In this document: one piece after another, positions 3,975 through 34,901 of the stretch
Numbering within the stretch: the stretch's first letter is position 1
Layout: each line of letters opens with the position of its first letter
Assembly: GCA_017483465.1 (NCBI GenBank)
Contig: JAFUWN010000019.1
Location: forward strand, 1 to 48,028
Length of the DNA stretch: 48,028 nt
Direction of reading: 5' to 3'
DNA from: Oscillospiraceae bacterium
Lineage (GTDB): Bacteria > Bacillota > Clostridia > Oscillospirales > Ruminococcaceae
Notes under the pieces: generated by a model
The model's database searches: none
The model's input: the letters and a program-made list of their open reading frames with translations, nothing else
What the model was told of the DNA's origin: nothing
Program-made: the position numbers and the translations under genes

Positions 3975-4577
3975 ATGTTAATTTATTATTATATGATTCC
4001 GGATTGCAGTTATCTGAAAGATCAGAATTATATTCTTGCTCCGGAGGGAACTGCCGAGGGTCTGTTACAGCAATACGATTTTCAGCAGAATGAAAACGGA
4101 TTCTGGTATAAAATTCCCAATCATCAGGAATATGAAATTATCATGAAGGGCTGGCCGAATTATGATATTATATTCTCTTTTGATCATAAACCTGTTTATA
4201 AGCCGAATTCTGAACAGCCTGTGATATTTCATGATTCCGCTTCAAAATCTGAATCTATATTTCATGAACATCCCGAATTTCAGGAAAAACCGGAAATACA
4301 AGGCACTTCGACTGGAAATGTACTTTGTATTATTGCTCTGCTTCTGCTTTGTCTTTCTTTTCTATCTTTTATCGTCTCTCAGAATGATGAATTTATTCTG
4401 CCTGGTATCGGAGCAATACTGCTTTCTTGTATTCTGACGATTATCGTCAGACTTCGTTATCCTGAAAATCTGTTCGGAAAAATTCTGTTCGGAATTCATG
4501 TTCTGATTTTTATCCTCCTGATTCTGGCAATGATTGAAGTCATCCTCGAATGTGTCCAGTGCCTCAACAGCTGTTAA
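3975..4577 (+). CDS. Tandem membrane protein 3 of 3, unknown function
   Basis: A 200-residue third paralogue. The soluble domain (YYMIPDCSYLKD, ILAPEGTAEGLLQQYDF, FWYKIPNHQEYEIIMKG) aligns across its length with the two preceding proteins. Two hydrophobic segments follow, with YPENLFGKI between them. It sits 10 bases after the previous stop behind an AAGGAGA ribosome site. The next gene starts one base after its stop. Divergence between the three copies is substantial, so the duplication is not recent. Confidence 0.7.
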   Translation: MLIYYYMIPDCSYLKDQNYILAPEGTAEGLLQQYDFQQNENGFWYKIPNHQEYEIIMKGWPNYDIIFSFDHKPVYKPNSEQPVIFHDSASKSESIFHEHPEFQEKPEIQGTSTGNVLCIIALLLLCLSFLSFIVSQNDEFILPGIGAILLSCILTIIVRLRYPENLFGKILFGIHVLIFILLILAMIEVILECVQCLNSC

Positions 4578-4578
4578 T

Positions 4579-5289
4579 ATGATTATGATAGAAATTAATA
4601 CAGATTATAAATTTATTTCTCCTTATCCGGTCATGATTATTTTATCTCTGACTGTCGGAATTATCGTGATGTATATTTTGAACCGGAAAGATCAGATTCA
4701 GAAAAATGTTTCCGGCTATTTATGTATGCTTGCTCCGATGATGAGCCTTTTCTTCGGACTGCTTCTGACTTATATCACTTCCGGCGGACAGTATTTCGGA
4801 CTTTCTTCTCTCGGCGGACTCGCCGGAATGTATCTCGCCTGTCTGATTATGGCTCTGATCAATCCTCAGAAAGATACTGTCAGAATCATGATGAAAAACT
4901 GTACATTAGTTTTACCCTTGATTTACAGTATCTCAAAAATCGGCTGTCTGCTGGGCGGATGCTGTCGGGGAACTGCTTATCACGGGCCATTCTGCATTCA
5001 TTATGCCGGAAGCAAAACAGATTCTGCTGTTGTCTTTCCGGTACAGCCTGCGGAAACACTTGTATTTCTGATCATATTTATACTTGGTATATTCCTGCAA
5101 AAGAAACATCAGCATACTGTCTGGATGGTTTTTATTTTTTCAGCTTTAGCGAAATTTCTGCTTGACTTCCTGAGAGAATCGCATACTAATCAGATCATTT
5201 CTTTTACACAGATACTGTGTCTGCTTCTGCTTCTGACCGGATTCCTGATTTTATATCTTAATCATCAAAAATTAAAAAAACAGGCATAA
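4579..5289 (+). CDS. Lgt-family-like polytopic membrane protein
   Basis: A 236-residue protein with about seven membrane segments. The central motif IGCLLGGCCRGTAYHGPF and the later FPVQPAETL and LDFLRES resemble prolipoprotein diacylglyceryl transferase (Lgt) family members. Lgt moves diacylglycerol from phosphatidylglycerol to the lipobox cysteine. This protein is shorter and more divergent than housekeeping Lgt, so it may be a paralogue with another substrate. ATG 4579 or ATG 4585 could be the start. Neither has a strong ribosome site, and coupling to the upstream stop (TAA at 4575-4577) is likely. The same operon encodes a lipoprotein, which makes a lipid-modification role plausible but unproven. 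Confidence 0.65.
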   Translation: MIMIEINTDYKFISPYPVMIILSLTVGIIVMYILNRKDQIQKNVSGYLCMLAPMMSLFFGLLLTYITSGGQYFGLSSLGGLAGMYLACLIMALINPQKDTVRIMMKNCTLVLPLIYSISKIGCLLGGCCRGTAYHGPFCIHYAGSKTDSAVVFPVQPAETLVFLIIFILGIFLQKKHQHTVWMVFIFSALAKFLLDFLRESHTNQIISFTQILCLLLLLTGFLILYLNHQKLKKQA

Positions 5290-28459: not shown

Positions 28460-28801
28460 ATGAATTACAGAGAATTATATTTTCAGCATCATAAAGGCAA
28501 AAAACTGCTGTTCCGGAAAGGCGTTTATTATAAATGCGTTTCCTGCGGAAAATGGTTCAGCAAATCAGAAATTACAGTAGATCATATTATCCCGAAACGC
28601 AAGGGCGGTCTGGATGTGATCAGCAATTTACAGGCAATGTGCCGCAGCTGTAATTCCCGCAAACGGGACAGACAGTCGAAAACAGATACTTTTAAAGGCG
28701 TTGTCGGCATGACAGCTCAGGGAGAACTCGGGCATTTTATCGAGAGTGCCGCAAAACAGAAAGTCAAAGATGCACTCGGCATTAAATACAAAAGAAAATA
28801 G
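28460..28801 (+). CDS. HNH endonuclease
   Basis: A 113-residue stand-alone HNH nuclease. The core has a zinc knuckle CVSCGK (first CxxC), the catalytic histidine motif VDHIIPKRKGG, the asparagine of SNLQAMC and a second CRSC. The fold cleaves DNA using one divalent metal. No intron, intein, phage or restriction gene is adjacent, so its role is unknown. It could be a remnant or a repair/defence nuclease. The C-terminal tail is basic (KDALGIKYKRK), which suits DNA binding. CGGAGGTG precedes the ATG. Promoter and terminator flank it, so it is transcribed alone. Confidence 0.88.
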   Translation: MNYRELYFQHHKGKKLLFRKGVYYKCVSCGKWFSKSEITVDHIIPKRKGGLDVISNLQAMCRSCNSRKRDRQSKTDTFKGVVGMTAQGELGHFIESAAKQKVKDALGIKYKRK

Positions 28802-30724: not shown

Positions 30725-31474
30725 TTATTTTTTGAGATTTTCTCTGAGCCGTTTCTTAATGCCCTTGATAATCTGTTCACGAGCCTGTACAGCCGTTTCT
30801 TTCTCTACGGGCTTGACATCTTCCAGCGGATAGGGAATGCCTAGTTCATGATATTTTGTTTTTCCCATATCATGATAAGGCAGAACATCCAGAGCTTTCA
30901 GCGTTTTCAGATTTCCAATAAAATAGCCTAATCTGGTTTGTTCTTCTTCGCCGTCCGTCCAGCCCGGAACAATTACATGACGAATCCAGACCGGAATATT
31001 TTTCTTGCTGAGATATTCAGCGAATGCTAAAATATTCTTGTTTGAATGCCCCGTCAGTTCTTTGTGCTTTTCATCATCAATATGCTTAATATCGAGCATA
31101 ACTAAATCAGTCACGCTCAGAAGCTGATCATATTTCTCCGGACAGACCGGATTAAAACAGATTCCTGACGTATCAAGACAGGTATGAATTTTTTTTTGTT
31201 TTGCGAGTGTGAATAATTCTGTTAAAAATTCCATCTGAAGCATAGGTTCTCCGCCGGTAGCTGTAATGCCTCCGTTGCGATAGAATTCCCTGTTATGTTC
31301 ATAGCACTGAATGAGTTCATCAGCGGTCATGGGCGTACCTGCTTTGACTTCCCATGTATCAGGATTATGACAGTATAAACATCGCATCGGACAGCCCTGA
31401 AAGAAGATTACAAATCTGACTCCGGGGCCGTCTACCGTACCGAACGAATCTGTAGAATGAATATATCCCTGCAT
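30725..31474 (-). CDS. pflA: Pyruvate formate-lyase activating enzyme
   Basis: A 249-residue radical SAM enzyme. It reductively cleaves S-adenosylmethionine and abstracts hydrogen from the glycine of pyruvate formate-lyase. The cluster motif is C28-x3-C32-x2-C35 (GCPMRCLYCHNPDTW), preceded by DGPGVRFVIFFQG. GGEPML, the SAM-binding GGE motif, follows. The length is normal. The start was set at the methionine of MQGYIHSTDSFG, 249 codons from the stop, since the frame upstream has no family similarity. It is the last gene of the pfl operon, 101 bases after the glycyl-radical domain gene, with a hairpin between. Confidence 0.95.
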   Translation of the reverse strand: MQGYIHSTDSFGTVDGPGVRFVIFFQGCPMRCLYCHNPDTWEVKAGTPMTADELIQCYEHNREFYRNGGITATGGEPMLQMEFLTELFTLAKQKKIHTCLDTSGICFNPVCPEKYDQLLSVTDLVMLDIKHIDDEKHKELTGHSNKNILAFAEYLSKKNIPVWIRHVIVPGWTDGEEEQTRLGYFIGNLKTLKALDVLPYHDMGKTKYHELGIPYPLEDVKPVEKETAVQAREQIIKGIKKRLRENLKK

Positions 31475-31575: not shown

Positions 31576-31824
31576 TCAGATTTTGTCATGAAATGTTCTG
31601 GAAATGACATCATCCTGCTGTTCTTTGGTCAGCTTGATAAAATTCACTGCATAACCGGATACACGGATTGTCAGCTGAGGATAATTTTCCGGATGTTTCT
31701 GAGCATCGAGAAGTGTTTCTCTTGTGAATACATTGACATTCAGGTGATGTCCGCCTTTGGAGACATAACCATCGAGTAATTCCACCAGATTGTCAACCTG
31801 CTGATCGTTCTGAATTTCTGCCAT
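31576..31824 (-). CDS. Stand-alone glycyl-radical domain of pyruvate formate-lyase (GrcA-like)
   Basis: An 82-residue protein equal to the C-terminal domain of pyruvate formate-lyase. Its order of motifs ([17 protein letters not shown], then [15 protein letters not shown], then [10 protein letters not shown] with radical glycine G57, then [15 protein letters not shown]) follows the end of E. coli PflB and GrcA/YfiD closely. It is the part that PflA activates and that inserts into the barrel of the core enzyme. It has its own AAGGAGG ribosome site and ATG, so it is made as a separate chain. Because the large pfl gene at 32097-34229 lacks this domain, it is probably an essential subunit here and not only a repair part. 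Confidence 0.93.
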
Positions 31825-31855
31825 GATAAATTCCTCCTTGATAAAATATTTTTAA

Positions 31856-32122
31856 TCAGAGTTCCCCGTTGTCAGGTTCTTCAGATTCTTCATCTTCCTG
31901 ATAATCAGGGTCTTCGTCATCAAAGTTCTGTACAGCACAGGCACCGAGTTTCGGATTGCATTCCGTACTGTTGACAGTCTGGACACGGGTCTGTTCGCCA
32001 ATATCCAGGTTGATATGCTGGCTTCCAGATGCTGCAAGAGCATCCAGAAGAGCAACTAAATCATCTGCCTGCTGATTCAGTTCAGAATCATCAGGATCAG
32101 TTATTTTCTTCGGATTCTTCAT
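31856..32122 (-). CDS. Small acidic protein resembling a degenerate glycyl-radical domain
   Basis: An 88-residue protein between the pfl core gene and the glycyl-radical gene. ATG 32122 has a perfect AGGAGG six bases upstream and overlaps the end of the core gene by 26 bases in another frame, so it is likely translationally coupled. The segment [20 protein letters not shown] aligns with [20 protein letters not shown] of the downstream radical domain, and [12 protein letters not shown] may align with YPQL...SGYAVNF. The radical RVSGYA loop is not conserved. A very acidic tail ends the protein ([13 protein letters not shown]). Homology and function are inferred from these short matches. Confidence 0.65.
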
Positions 32123-34229
32123 TGATAGCCTCCTGTGCGAGACGGTCAATATCGAGATCGCCGGCGAAGATTCTGGTATTCTTGCCGAGGGCATCCGGAA
32201 TGATGGAGAACGTATTGGAAATACCGTCCTGAGCGTGACGGAACGGAAGCTTTGCAACGGAACTCAGAGAAGCAACCGCACCATGTGTATCTCTGCCATG
32301 CATCGGATTTGCACCAGGAGCGAGCGGAATACCCTGTTTTCTGCCGTCTGGAGTATTACCGGTTTTCTTGCCGTATACGACATTGGATGTGATTGTCAGA
32401 ATAGACATTGTCGGCACACCGTCTCTGTAGGTATGATGTTTTCTGATTTTGTCCATGAACGTTCTGACGATATTCACAGCGATCTGGTCAACTCTGTCGT
32501 CATCATTGCCGTATTTCGGGAAGTCGCCTTCGATTTCATAATCTACGATTACGTTTTTAGTTACGCTGATGACATTTCCGGCCTTGTCCTTGACTTCGAT
32601 ATCTTTACGAATCGGCTTTACTTTTGCGTACTTGATGGCACTCAGGGAGTCAGCGACAACGGACAGTCCGGCAATGCCGGTAGCAAAATATCTCTTGACA
32701 TCACGGTCATGCAGAGCCATCTGTACTCTTTCATAGCTGTATTTATCATGCATGAAGTGAATAACATTCAGTGTATTGACATACAGACCGGCGAGCCATT
32801 CCATCATGTCGTCATATTTTTCCATGACATCATCATAATTTAATACATCACCCTCGACAGGTCTGTATTTCGGCCCCACCTGAACGCCGAGTCTTTCATC
32901 CACACCGCCGTTGATGGCATACAGCAGGCATTTTGCGAGATTCGCTCTTGCACCGAAGAACTGCATTTCCTTGCCGACTCTCATGGAAGATACACAGCAG
33001 GCAATTGCATAGTCATCACCGTGGGTAACTCTCATCATATCGTCATTTTCATACTGAATTGAACTGGATTTGATAGACATCTTGGCACAGAATCTCTTGA
33101 AATTGATCGGCAGTCTGGTAGACCAGAGAATTGTCATATTCGGTTCCGGAGCAGTACCCAGATTATTCAGTGTATTCAGATAGCGGAAAGAATTCTTTGT
33201 GACCATGTGCTGACCGTCAACAGAAACACCGCCGATGGATTCTGTTACCCATGTCGGGTCGCCGGAGAACAGGGAGTTATATTCCGGAGTTCTTGCGAAT
33301 TTTACAAGACGCAGTTTCATGATAAAATGGTCAATTAATTCCTGTGCTTCTGCTTCTGTAATCAGGCCTTTTTCCAGGTCACGCTGAATATAAATATCTA
33401 AGAAAGAAGATGTTCTGCCGATAGACATTGCCGCACCGTTCTGTTCCTTGACAGCTGCCAGATAGCCGAAATACAGCCACTGTACAGCTTCCTGAGCATT
33501 CTTTGCAGGACGGGAAATATCAAAGCCATAGATTTCTCCGAGTTTTTTCAGGTCTTTCAGAGCATTGATCTGTTCGGACAGTTCTTCACGAAGACGGATA
33601 TTTTTAGAAGTCATACGAACAAAATGTGTTGCTTTCTGATGTTCTTTGTCTTCGATCAGCATATCAATGCCATAGAGTGCCACACGTCTGTAGTCGCCAA
33701 TGATACGGCCTCTGCCGTAAGCATCCGGCAGACCGGTCAGGATAGCGGCATGTCTTGCGAGTTTCATTTCAGGCGTATAGGCATCGAACACACCCTGATT
33801 ATGTGTCTTTCTGTATTTTGTAAAAATTTCCACAACTTCGGGGTCTACTTCATAGCCGTATTCTTTGCAAGCCTGCTGAGCCATACGGATGCCGCCGAAC
33901 GGCTGAAGAGAACGCTTGAAAGGCTTGTCTGTCTGGAAACCGACAATTTTTTCCAGATCTTTATTTAAATAACCGGGGCCGTGAGAAGTAATGGTAGAAA
34001 TAATCTTGGTATCCATATCCAGAACACCACCGGCCTCACGTTCCTGACGAGATAAATCCATTACCTGTTCCCAGAGTTTTTTTGTAGCTTCTGTGGGACC
34101 TTCCAGAAATGCTTCATCTCCGTCATAGGGGGTAATATTCTTGTGAATGAAATCACGGACATTGACAGAAGTGTTACTCCATCTGCCGGGTGCAAAGCCT
34201 TCCCATTCCGGTGCAAAGTTTTTGAACAT
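32097..34229 (-). CDS. pflB: Pyruvate formate-lyase catalytic core lacking the glycyl-radical domain
   Basis: A 710-residue formate C-acetyltransferase core that converts pyruvate and CoA to acetyl-CoA and formate. The paired active-site cysteines are C411-C412 in [10 protein letters not shown], followed by [11 protein letters not shown] and the family blocks [20 protein letters not shown] and [22 protein letters not shown]. The chain stops after [20 protein letters not shown] and a short acidic tail (EESEENN), just where E. coli PflB (760 residues) enters its C-terminal glycyl-radical domain. The missing domain is encoded at 31576-31824. The start was set at MFKNFAPEW, 9 bases after AAGGAAG. 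The ATG three codons earlier is too close to it. Confidence 0.93.
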
Positions 34230-34296
34230 AAATGACATCTTCCTTTCCAGTATATGAATGCGTTTGAAATACATACATTCTTTCTTTACAATTATT

Positions 34297-34325
34297 ATCA
34301 TACTACTTTTTCAGAACTTTGTCAA
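34297..34325 (-). promoter_or_regulatory. Promoter of the pfl operon
   Basis: On the minus strand TTGACA, a 17-base spacer, TATGAT. A second TTGACA lies 11 bases further upstream. I looked for Rex- or Fnr-like dyads and saw none. Confidence 0.85.
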
Positions 34326-34609: not shown

Positions 34610-34622
34610 AGGAGTGAAGATT

Positions 34623-34901
34623 ATGTACACAAGCGACAGAGCTGTCATGCTCGGAACGTATATTCTCGAAGAACAGACGACTGTACGTGCCGCAGCGAAG
34701 AAATACGGTATTTCCAAAAGTACCGTGCATAAGGATGTCAGTGAGCGGCTGCCTTACATACAGCCGGAACTTGCCGAACAGGTACACGCCGTACTTCTGA
34801 AAAACAAACAGGAACGTCATATTCGGGGCGGCATGGCCACCAAGCAGAAATATGCCCGTCTCCGGCAGGCACGTGATCAGGCACAAAATACAGAAAAATA
34901 A
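34623..34901 (+). CDS. spoIIID: Sporulation transcription factor SpoIIID
   Basis: A 92-residue helix-turn-helix regulator. In endospore formers SpoIIID switches genes of the mother cell on and off after engulfment. The family pattern is clear: RAVMLGTYILEEQTTVRAAAKKYGISKSTVHKDVSERL (seen in parts), where the recognition helix is in ISKSTVHKD, then QVHAVLLKNKQERHIRGGMATKQKY. The length is normal. The start is ATG 34623, eight bases after AGGAG. A GTG at 34614 overlaps that site. A terminator follows at once. No sigma-A promoter is visible, as expected if a sporulation sigma factor is used. A sigma-E site could not be identified. Confidence 0.95.
   Translation: MYTSDRAVMLGTYILEEQTTVRAAAKKYGISKSTVHKDVSERLPYIQPELAEQVHAVLLKNKQERHIRGGMATKQKYARLRQARDQAQNTEK

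Follow-up and report, generated by a model that had tools for sequence, protein, structure and literature searches.

A pyruvate formate-lyase encoded by two genes

The window, a stretch of 48,028 nucleotides from an Oscillospiraceae bacterium (contig JAFUWN010000019.1 of assembly GCA_017483465.1), carries a pyruvate formate-lyase (PFL) whose catalytic core and glycyl-radical domain are encoded by separate genes, and this split is a recurrent design in Clostridia. The explanation that best accounts for the data as a whole, and which is considered probable, is that the two products form the only PFL of the cell as a hetero-assembly with an exchangeable radical subunit, and that a cysteine-bearing element, located either on a small third protein (here X) or on the tail of the core itself, gates or guards the empty core. 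In gut and rumen bacteria PFL has a central place in fermentation, and its radical domain is cut by oxygen. With a natural obligate split, the exchange of a spare part, which serves E. coli as a rescue, would be the normal design. The genes are all read from the minus strand in the order core, X, GrcA3 and pflA, and the features of the locus are the following:

32097..34229, minus strand: core gene (pfl), 710 aa from the ATG at 34229 or 713 aa from the ATG at 34238, without a glycyl-radical domain
32994..32999, minus strand: codons of the active-site Cys-Cys (IACCVS) in the core gene
31856..32122, minus strand: middle gene X, 88 aa, with GrcA-like helix and strand, Cys55, Cys62 and an acidic tail, without a glycine loop
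31576..31824, minus strand: radical subunit GrcA3, 82 aa, matching NF038360
31654..31656, minus strand: radical glycine codon, Gly57 of GrcA3, equivalent to Gly734 of E. coli PFL
30725..31474, minus strand: pflA, radical-SAM activating enzyme (TIGR02493, 313 bits against a cut-off of 231.75)
34297..34325, minus strand: promoter-like site upstream of the core gene (TTGACA-17-TATGAT, 11 of 12 positions), a consensus match only

The core matches positions 1 to 663 of the 744 in the PFL model TIGR01255 (1114 bits, cut-off 994) and holds the catalytic Cys-Cys at residues 414-415 of the 713-residue reading, with IACCVS starting at residue 412. The glycyl-radical loop falls outside this coverage and is absent from the chain, as it is in relatives. 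The remainder of the same model, positions 663 to 744, is covered by the small open reading frame at 31824-31576, which has an intact RVSGYA loop and is a member of the NCBIfam family GrcA3 (NF038360; 167.6 bits, cut-off 158), a family name which the first-pass annotation had missed. Against GrcA/YfiD (TIGR04365) the same protein reaches 97.2 bits, below the cut-off of 170. The locus thus shares with PflB (TIGR01255; E. coli 1h16) the core sequence, the Cys-Cys site, the glycine loop sequence and PflA, but the E. coli enzyme is one chain of 759 residues while here two genes are present, cut between residues 680 and 681. When aligned to the E. coli chain (1h16) the core reaches residue 680 and the GrcA3 profile takes up residues 681-759, so that no piece is missing and the enzyme is divided by one clean cut. 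The first-pass annotation, made from the window sequence, had claimed that the core keeps its cysteine pair and ends where the radical domain should begin, and that this domain is a separate downstream gene with its own ribosome site and an RVSGYA loop; both claims are confirmed and the split is real.

The start of X overlaps the 3' end of the core gene by 26 nt, and the ribosome sites of X (AGGAGG, 32134-32129) and GrcA3 (AAGGAGG, 31839-31833) are both judged to be good. For the core, the ATG at 34229 is better spaced from an upstream purine-rich site than that at 34238. The region contains 14 promoter-type sites, while shuffled versions average 10.5. Among 69 split loci (L095-L174), pflA follows within 2.5 kb downstream in 43, is not found there in 20, and six loci are cut.

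Search for a whole enzyme and spread of the split

The genome to which the window belongs is a draft (95% complete, 118 contigs), and within it only one PFL-like match and no full-length PFL was found. A third match to the Gly_radical model is an 818-aa frame on another contig, beside a radical-SAM gene; judged by eye from its RITGY loop and this neighbour, it appears to be a class III ribonucleotide reductase. The genome search thus bears out the earlier statement that no full-length enzyme accompanies the split genes. The further statement, that core and radical subunit form an obligate hetero-assembly, gains from the same search: the split stands, no whole PFL was found, and from these two results an obligate assembly is strongly inferred and regarded as likely. 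The split PFL is probably the sole pyruvate formate-lyase of the cell.

Within the genus, TIGR01255 is matched in 33 of 38 genomes (five have no match), and this search returned no full-length PFL in any of the 38. The core ends at model position 662-669 in 30 of the 33 and only an N-terminal piece is present in the other three, while core and radical piece are found apart in 29 of the 38 genomes. At the family level, 85 of 396 genomes contain GrcA3 above the cut-off. The TIGR01255 search was extended to 80 family genomes, comprising 78 of these 85 and two just under the GrcA3 cut-off, the window genome included (the remaining seven belong to the genus of the window and were covered by the genus search). 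In all 80 the core ends at position 663-677, and one (G435) has a full-length PFL besides its split core, among the matches listed. A stand-alone GrcA3 frame also occurs in at least 16 of the 293 genomes sampled from the class. Each of the 15 besides the window genome has a truncated core (in pieces in G618), and one of them (G662; loci L185 and L200) has a whole PFL besides the split one. The split is seen in many Oscillospiraceae and Lachnospiraceae records. The relatives, in which the first-pass annotation proposed to look for the same split, thus carry it widely, a recurrence which that annotation had not noted.

This distribution bears on whether an assembly error, a frameshift or a decaying pseudogene could mimic a split. 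With 118 contigs the window genome is still a draft, and most of its relatives are metagenome-assembled genomes (MAGs), conditions under which such errors may be suspected. However, a local frameshift joining the two frames, which had been named as a possible refutation, is not what is found, as both pieces lie apart in 29 of 38 genus genomes and the core is truncated in 80 of 80 family genomes. The split is also carried by isolates (Claveliimonas bilis c-25, with a complete chromosome, Lacrimispora amygdalina, Ruminococcus sp. YE71 and Beduini massiliensis GM1), and pN/pS ratios across 13 genus loci are about 0.08 for the core and 0.06 for GrcA3, values which are rough since synonymous sites are near saturation in core, GrcA3 and X alike. 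An error or pseudogene is refuted by this conservation and can hardly be entertained further.

Some core frames of 790-1030 aa appeared at first sight to be fusions and were rejected as such: stop codons lie between core and GrcA3 in the loci that were read, and the GrcA3 frames above the cut-off are themselves 81-161 aa long in family genomes, among the matches listed. An apparent fusion of core and X in Ruminococcus UBA3855 (L095) was likewise dismissed, as its frame crosses N-masked stretches where the core has its own stop. Read-through of stop codons as a mechanism is not favoured, the genes being in different frames in many loci and core and X overlapping in the window. An AlphaFold model of a read-through pseudo-fusion of core, X and GrcA3 from L140 (45 alignment rows) had a mean pLDDT of 54, too low for use.

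A quick tree of 70 cores places the split ones in one group, apart from nine full-length PFLs of the order. One full-length row (L168) falls inside the split group, a placement that makes a re-fusion probable. A radical domain resembling GrcA3 was observed in the full-length PFLs at L168, L216 and L215.

Comparison with known radical-domain partners

Stand-alone glycyl-radical domains that complement a PFL lacking one are already represented by YfiD/GrcA (TIGR04365) and T4 Y06I. These are rescue parts beside a whole PFL, while GrcA3 here is encoded within the operon and is the only PFL radical domain found. One explanation would be that GrcA3 is nevertheless an ordinary spare of the YfiD type, serving a whole PFL elsewhere in the genome; its NCBI name, ‘autonomous glycyl radical cofactor’, would fit this, as would the full-length PFLs of G435 and G662. 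A YfiD-type part has a whole PFL beside it in the same genome, however, and none was found in the window genome, in the 38 genus genomes, in 79 of the 80 family genomes or in 14 of the 15 from the class. This near-absence of whole PFLs from genomes with GrcA3 argues against a spare for a hidden enzyme. The protein also falls short of the GrcA model (97.2 of 170 bits), and GrcA3 starts at the stretch equivalent to PFL residue 681 with a profile whose alignment to YfiD begins only at residue 68 of the latter. A spare role of this kind is thus very improbable, and GrcA3 is better regarded as one of two obligate parts of the enzyme. An additional, unlinked GrcA3 (L148) besides the split operon (L123) in MAG RGIG6987 fits a supply of spare parts. 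GrcA3 genes with no core gene for PFL within the roughly 1 to 4 kb of flanking sequence retrieved were also noted at L136, L134, L148, L158, L165 and L172, and L136 has two of them (1390-1645 and 4522-4777) with identical protein sequence.

According to one study (PMC8683613), YfiD has a disordered N-terminus of 60 residues, and an E. coli core cut at residue 695 did not detectably bind YfiD and formed 32-fold less radical. As regards affinity, these E. coli data run counter to the proposed assembly. As the split cores are cut even earlier than 695, their interface with the radical subunit must differ from that between the E. coli core and YfiD.

The closest solved chains to the core are two named ‘Formate acetyltransferase’, PDB 38la_A and 38lb_A (1141 and 1117 bits). 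The former ends where split cores end and the latter has Cys in its tail, while the GrcA3 profile matched no chain of either entry; both look like split cores. Given these chains and the NCBI name GrcA3, the split can be regarded as partly known, although, among the matches listed from the open-licence PMC literature, no paper was found that describes a split PFL or X.

A cysteine-bearing element in trans or in cis

The most unusual part of the operon is X, a conserved third component, which the first-pass annotation had mentioned as an intervening cistron but had not described. It has no family of its own in Pfam or NCBIfam, and the only family match of the X in the window is a weak one to GrcA3 (E 5.6e-4), which recurs, weakly, in 34 of 60 X proteins. 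In a profile-profile comparison X and GrcA3 align over 28 columns (probability 94, E 1.4e-7), and the X profile also meets the radical domain of full-length PFLs (E 3e-5 to 9e-4). Judged from these profiles, the first half of X is homologous to the first half of GrcA3. The glycine loop is lacking, as SGY occurs in none of 87 distinct X sequences, and all 87 have at least two Cys. The number in the counted part is two or three in 81 of the 87 (two in the window), below the four that make up a HiPIP-type or rubredoxin site, and the spacing is loose, with 4 to 9 residues between in 86 of the 87. One Cys is invariant in 60 aligned X proteins and an Asp, a Gly, a His, an Ala and a Pro are nearly so, the Pro being replaced by Gln in the window. 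An ACCxP motif in X resembles the ACCVS loop of the active site. Modelled alone with AlphaFold, X has a long helix (12-32) and a hairpin of two strands (36-41 and 45-50) and is otherwise undefined, the model being weak (mean pLDDT 65). No credible match was found among solved structures, nor any sequence match to HiPIP-type or rubredoxin folds. Among the 293 class genomes X exceeds 50 bits in eight, each with a stand-alone GrcA3 nearby.

The presence of X was compared with the tail of the core in 121 distinct split cores remaining after removal of duplicates, with X called above 36 bits, a threshold at which a diverged X could be missed. The loci were fetched as best matches, and their counts therefore do not represent a random sample. 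X without any Cys in the tail is found at 76 of these cores, and a tail with at least two Cys without X at 40; neither occurs at five, and none of the 121 cores has both. The motif of the tail (C..AC..PT-like) resembles the end of X. On the tree the X label changes eight times, at least four of them on well-supported branches, but only four pairs of X against tail are phylogenetically independent, none of them to the contrary (median p 0.25). A short tail motif like VFxGDL is present in 109 of the 121 split cores and absent from ten of ten full-length PFLs. The re-fused genes L168 and L216 have no Cys, and L215 has CDNC in its linker. Since the two deepest split rows (L164 and L198, in a tree rooted at the midpoint only) and PDB 38la are without a cysteine element, it is suggested that the split preceded this element. 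The five split cores with neither X nor tail Cys, among which L164 and L198 are counted, indicate that not every split enzyme needs one.

Alternatively, a radical domain may once have been duplicated and X may be what is left of the copy, without a function today. It is half such a domain, varies faster than core and GrcA3, and was not seen beside 45 of the 121 cores. However, its mean pN/pS in 78 pairs from the 13 genus loci is 0.226/0.747, a rough ratio of 0.30, and this constraint, the invariant Cys and the near-invariant residues all argue against decay. Moreover, X is retained in G578 (L187, L219) where the order is changed to core-GrcA3-X, and 40 of the 45 cores without X have a Cys tail instead. 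A functionless remnant is accordingly an unlikely account of X.

A role in gating has its nearest precedent in other glycyl radical enzymes, for which small Cys-bearing subunits, such as BSS-beta and MASS-delta, have been proposed as gates of the radical domain (PMC12358834). These two partners and HPAD-gamma bind Fe-S or Fe and have HiPIP-like or rubredoxin-like folds. X or the tail could be a metal-binding accessory of this kind, and the conserved Cys and His of X would suit it. The low number of cysteines in X and the absence of a sequence match to such folds speak against it, leaving metal-dependent gating possible although doubtful. The Cys pair might instead serve as a thiol switch or a hydrogen donor, either to quench the radical or to report on oxygen. 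Loose spacing is more in keeping with a thiol or disulfide than with a single fixed metal site, and the element is found on either chain; on the other hand, AlphaFold leaves the Cys-bearing part of X without a defined fold, and this reading is likewise held only as a possible one, on balance unlikely. X also differs from the three known partners in cysteine number and in descent, being a paralogue of the radical domain itself. Together with the cis tail it may represent a new kind of accessory, in which a radical-domain paralogue has exchanged its glycine loop for a Cys pair and docks at the GrcA3 site; this is proposed tentatively, with somewhat less than even confidence. The same tentative reading holds that the element controls the empty, loaded and oxygen-shut states of the enzyme, as a separate subunit or as the core's own tail depending on lineage. 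A conserved cysteine partner tied to the split would add a new means of regulation to the glycyl radical enzymes, and it would allow a direct test of how the radical domain gets out of the barrel and back in.

Proposed working of the split enzyme

The split, its conservation, the homology of X to GrcA3 and the alternation of X with the tail are shown by the data, while the complex, the exchange and the role of X are inferred. In the proposed hetero-assembly, the barrel would be built largely by the core, which carries the catalytic Cys pair, and completed by a final strand from GrcA3, the chain that would bring in the glycine loop and the C-terminal helix as well. PflA would set the radical on Gly57 of GrcA3, the loop of which would sit at the Cys pair of the core as in PFL, and the radical would then pass to a core cysteine; such transfer from glycine to a core cysteine is standard PFL chemistry. 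Oxygen would cut the 82-aa GrcA3 alone, and the 710-aa core could be kept while only the small subunit is made anew. The part of the interface that is missing in the truncated core may be supplied by the core tail, by X or by both. The role judged most likely for X, as a helix-and-strand copy of GrcA3, or for the cysteine tail where X is missing, is to occupy the GrcA3 site or a position next to it and keep the core closed while GrcA3 is activated or exchanged, with its cysteines acting as a metal or redox element; for X, a role as stand-in for GrcA3 is put forward as a hypothesis. The split would allow radical subunit and core to be made, activated and exchanged separately. What deserves work at the bench is the cysteine element, whether in cis or in trans.

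Other features of the locus

A gene for a SpoIIID-like regulator (34614-34898, plus strand) starts divergently beside the upstream region of pfl and scores 109.8 bits against TIGR02844, just below the cut-off of 111.5. Further along the window, a small open reading frame (28460-28798, plus strand) resembles parts of the IscB (E 6e-11) and Cas9d (E 9e-9) models, far below their cut-offs, and its motif reads, by eye, as that of an HNH nuclease.
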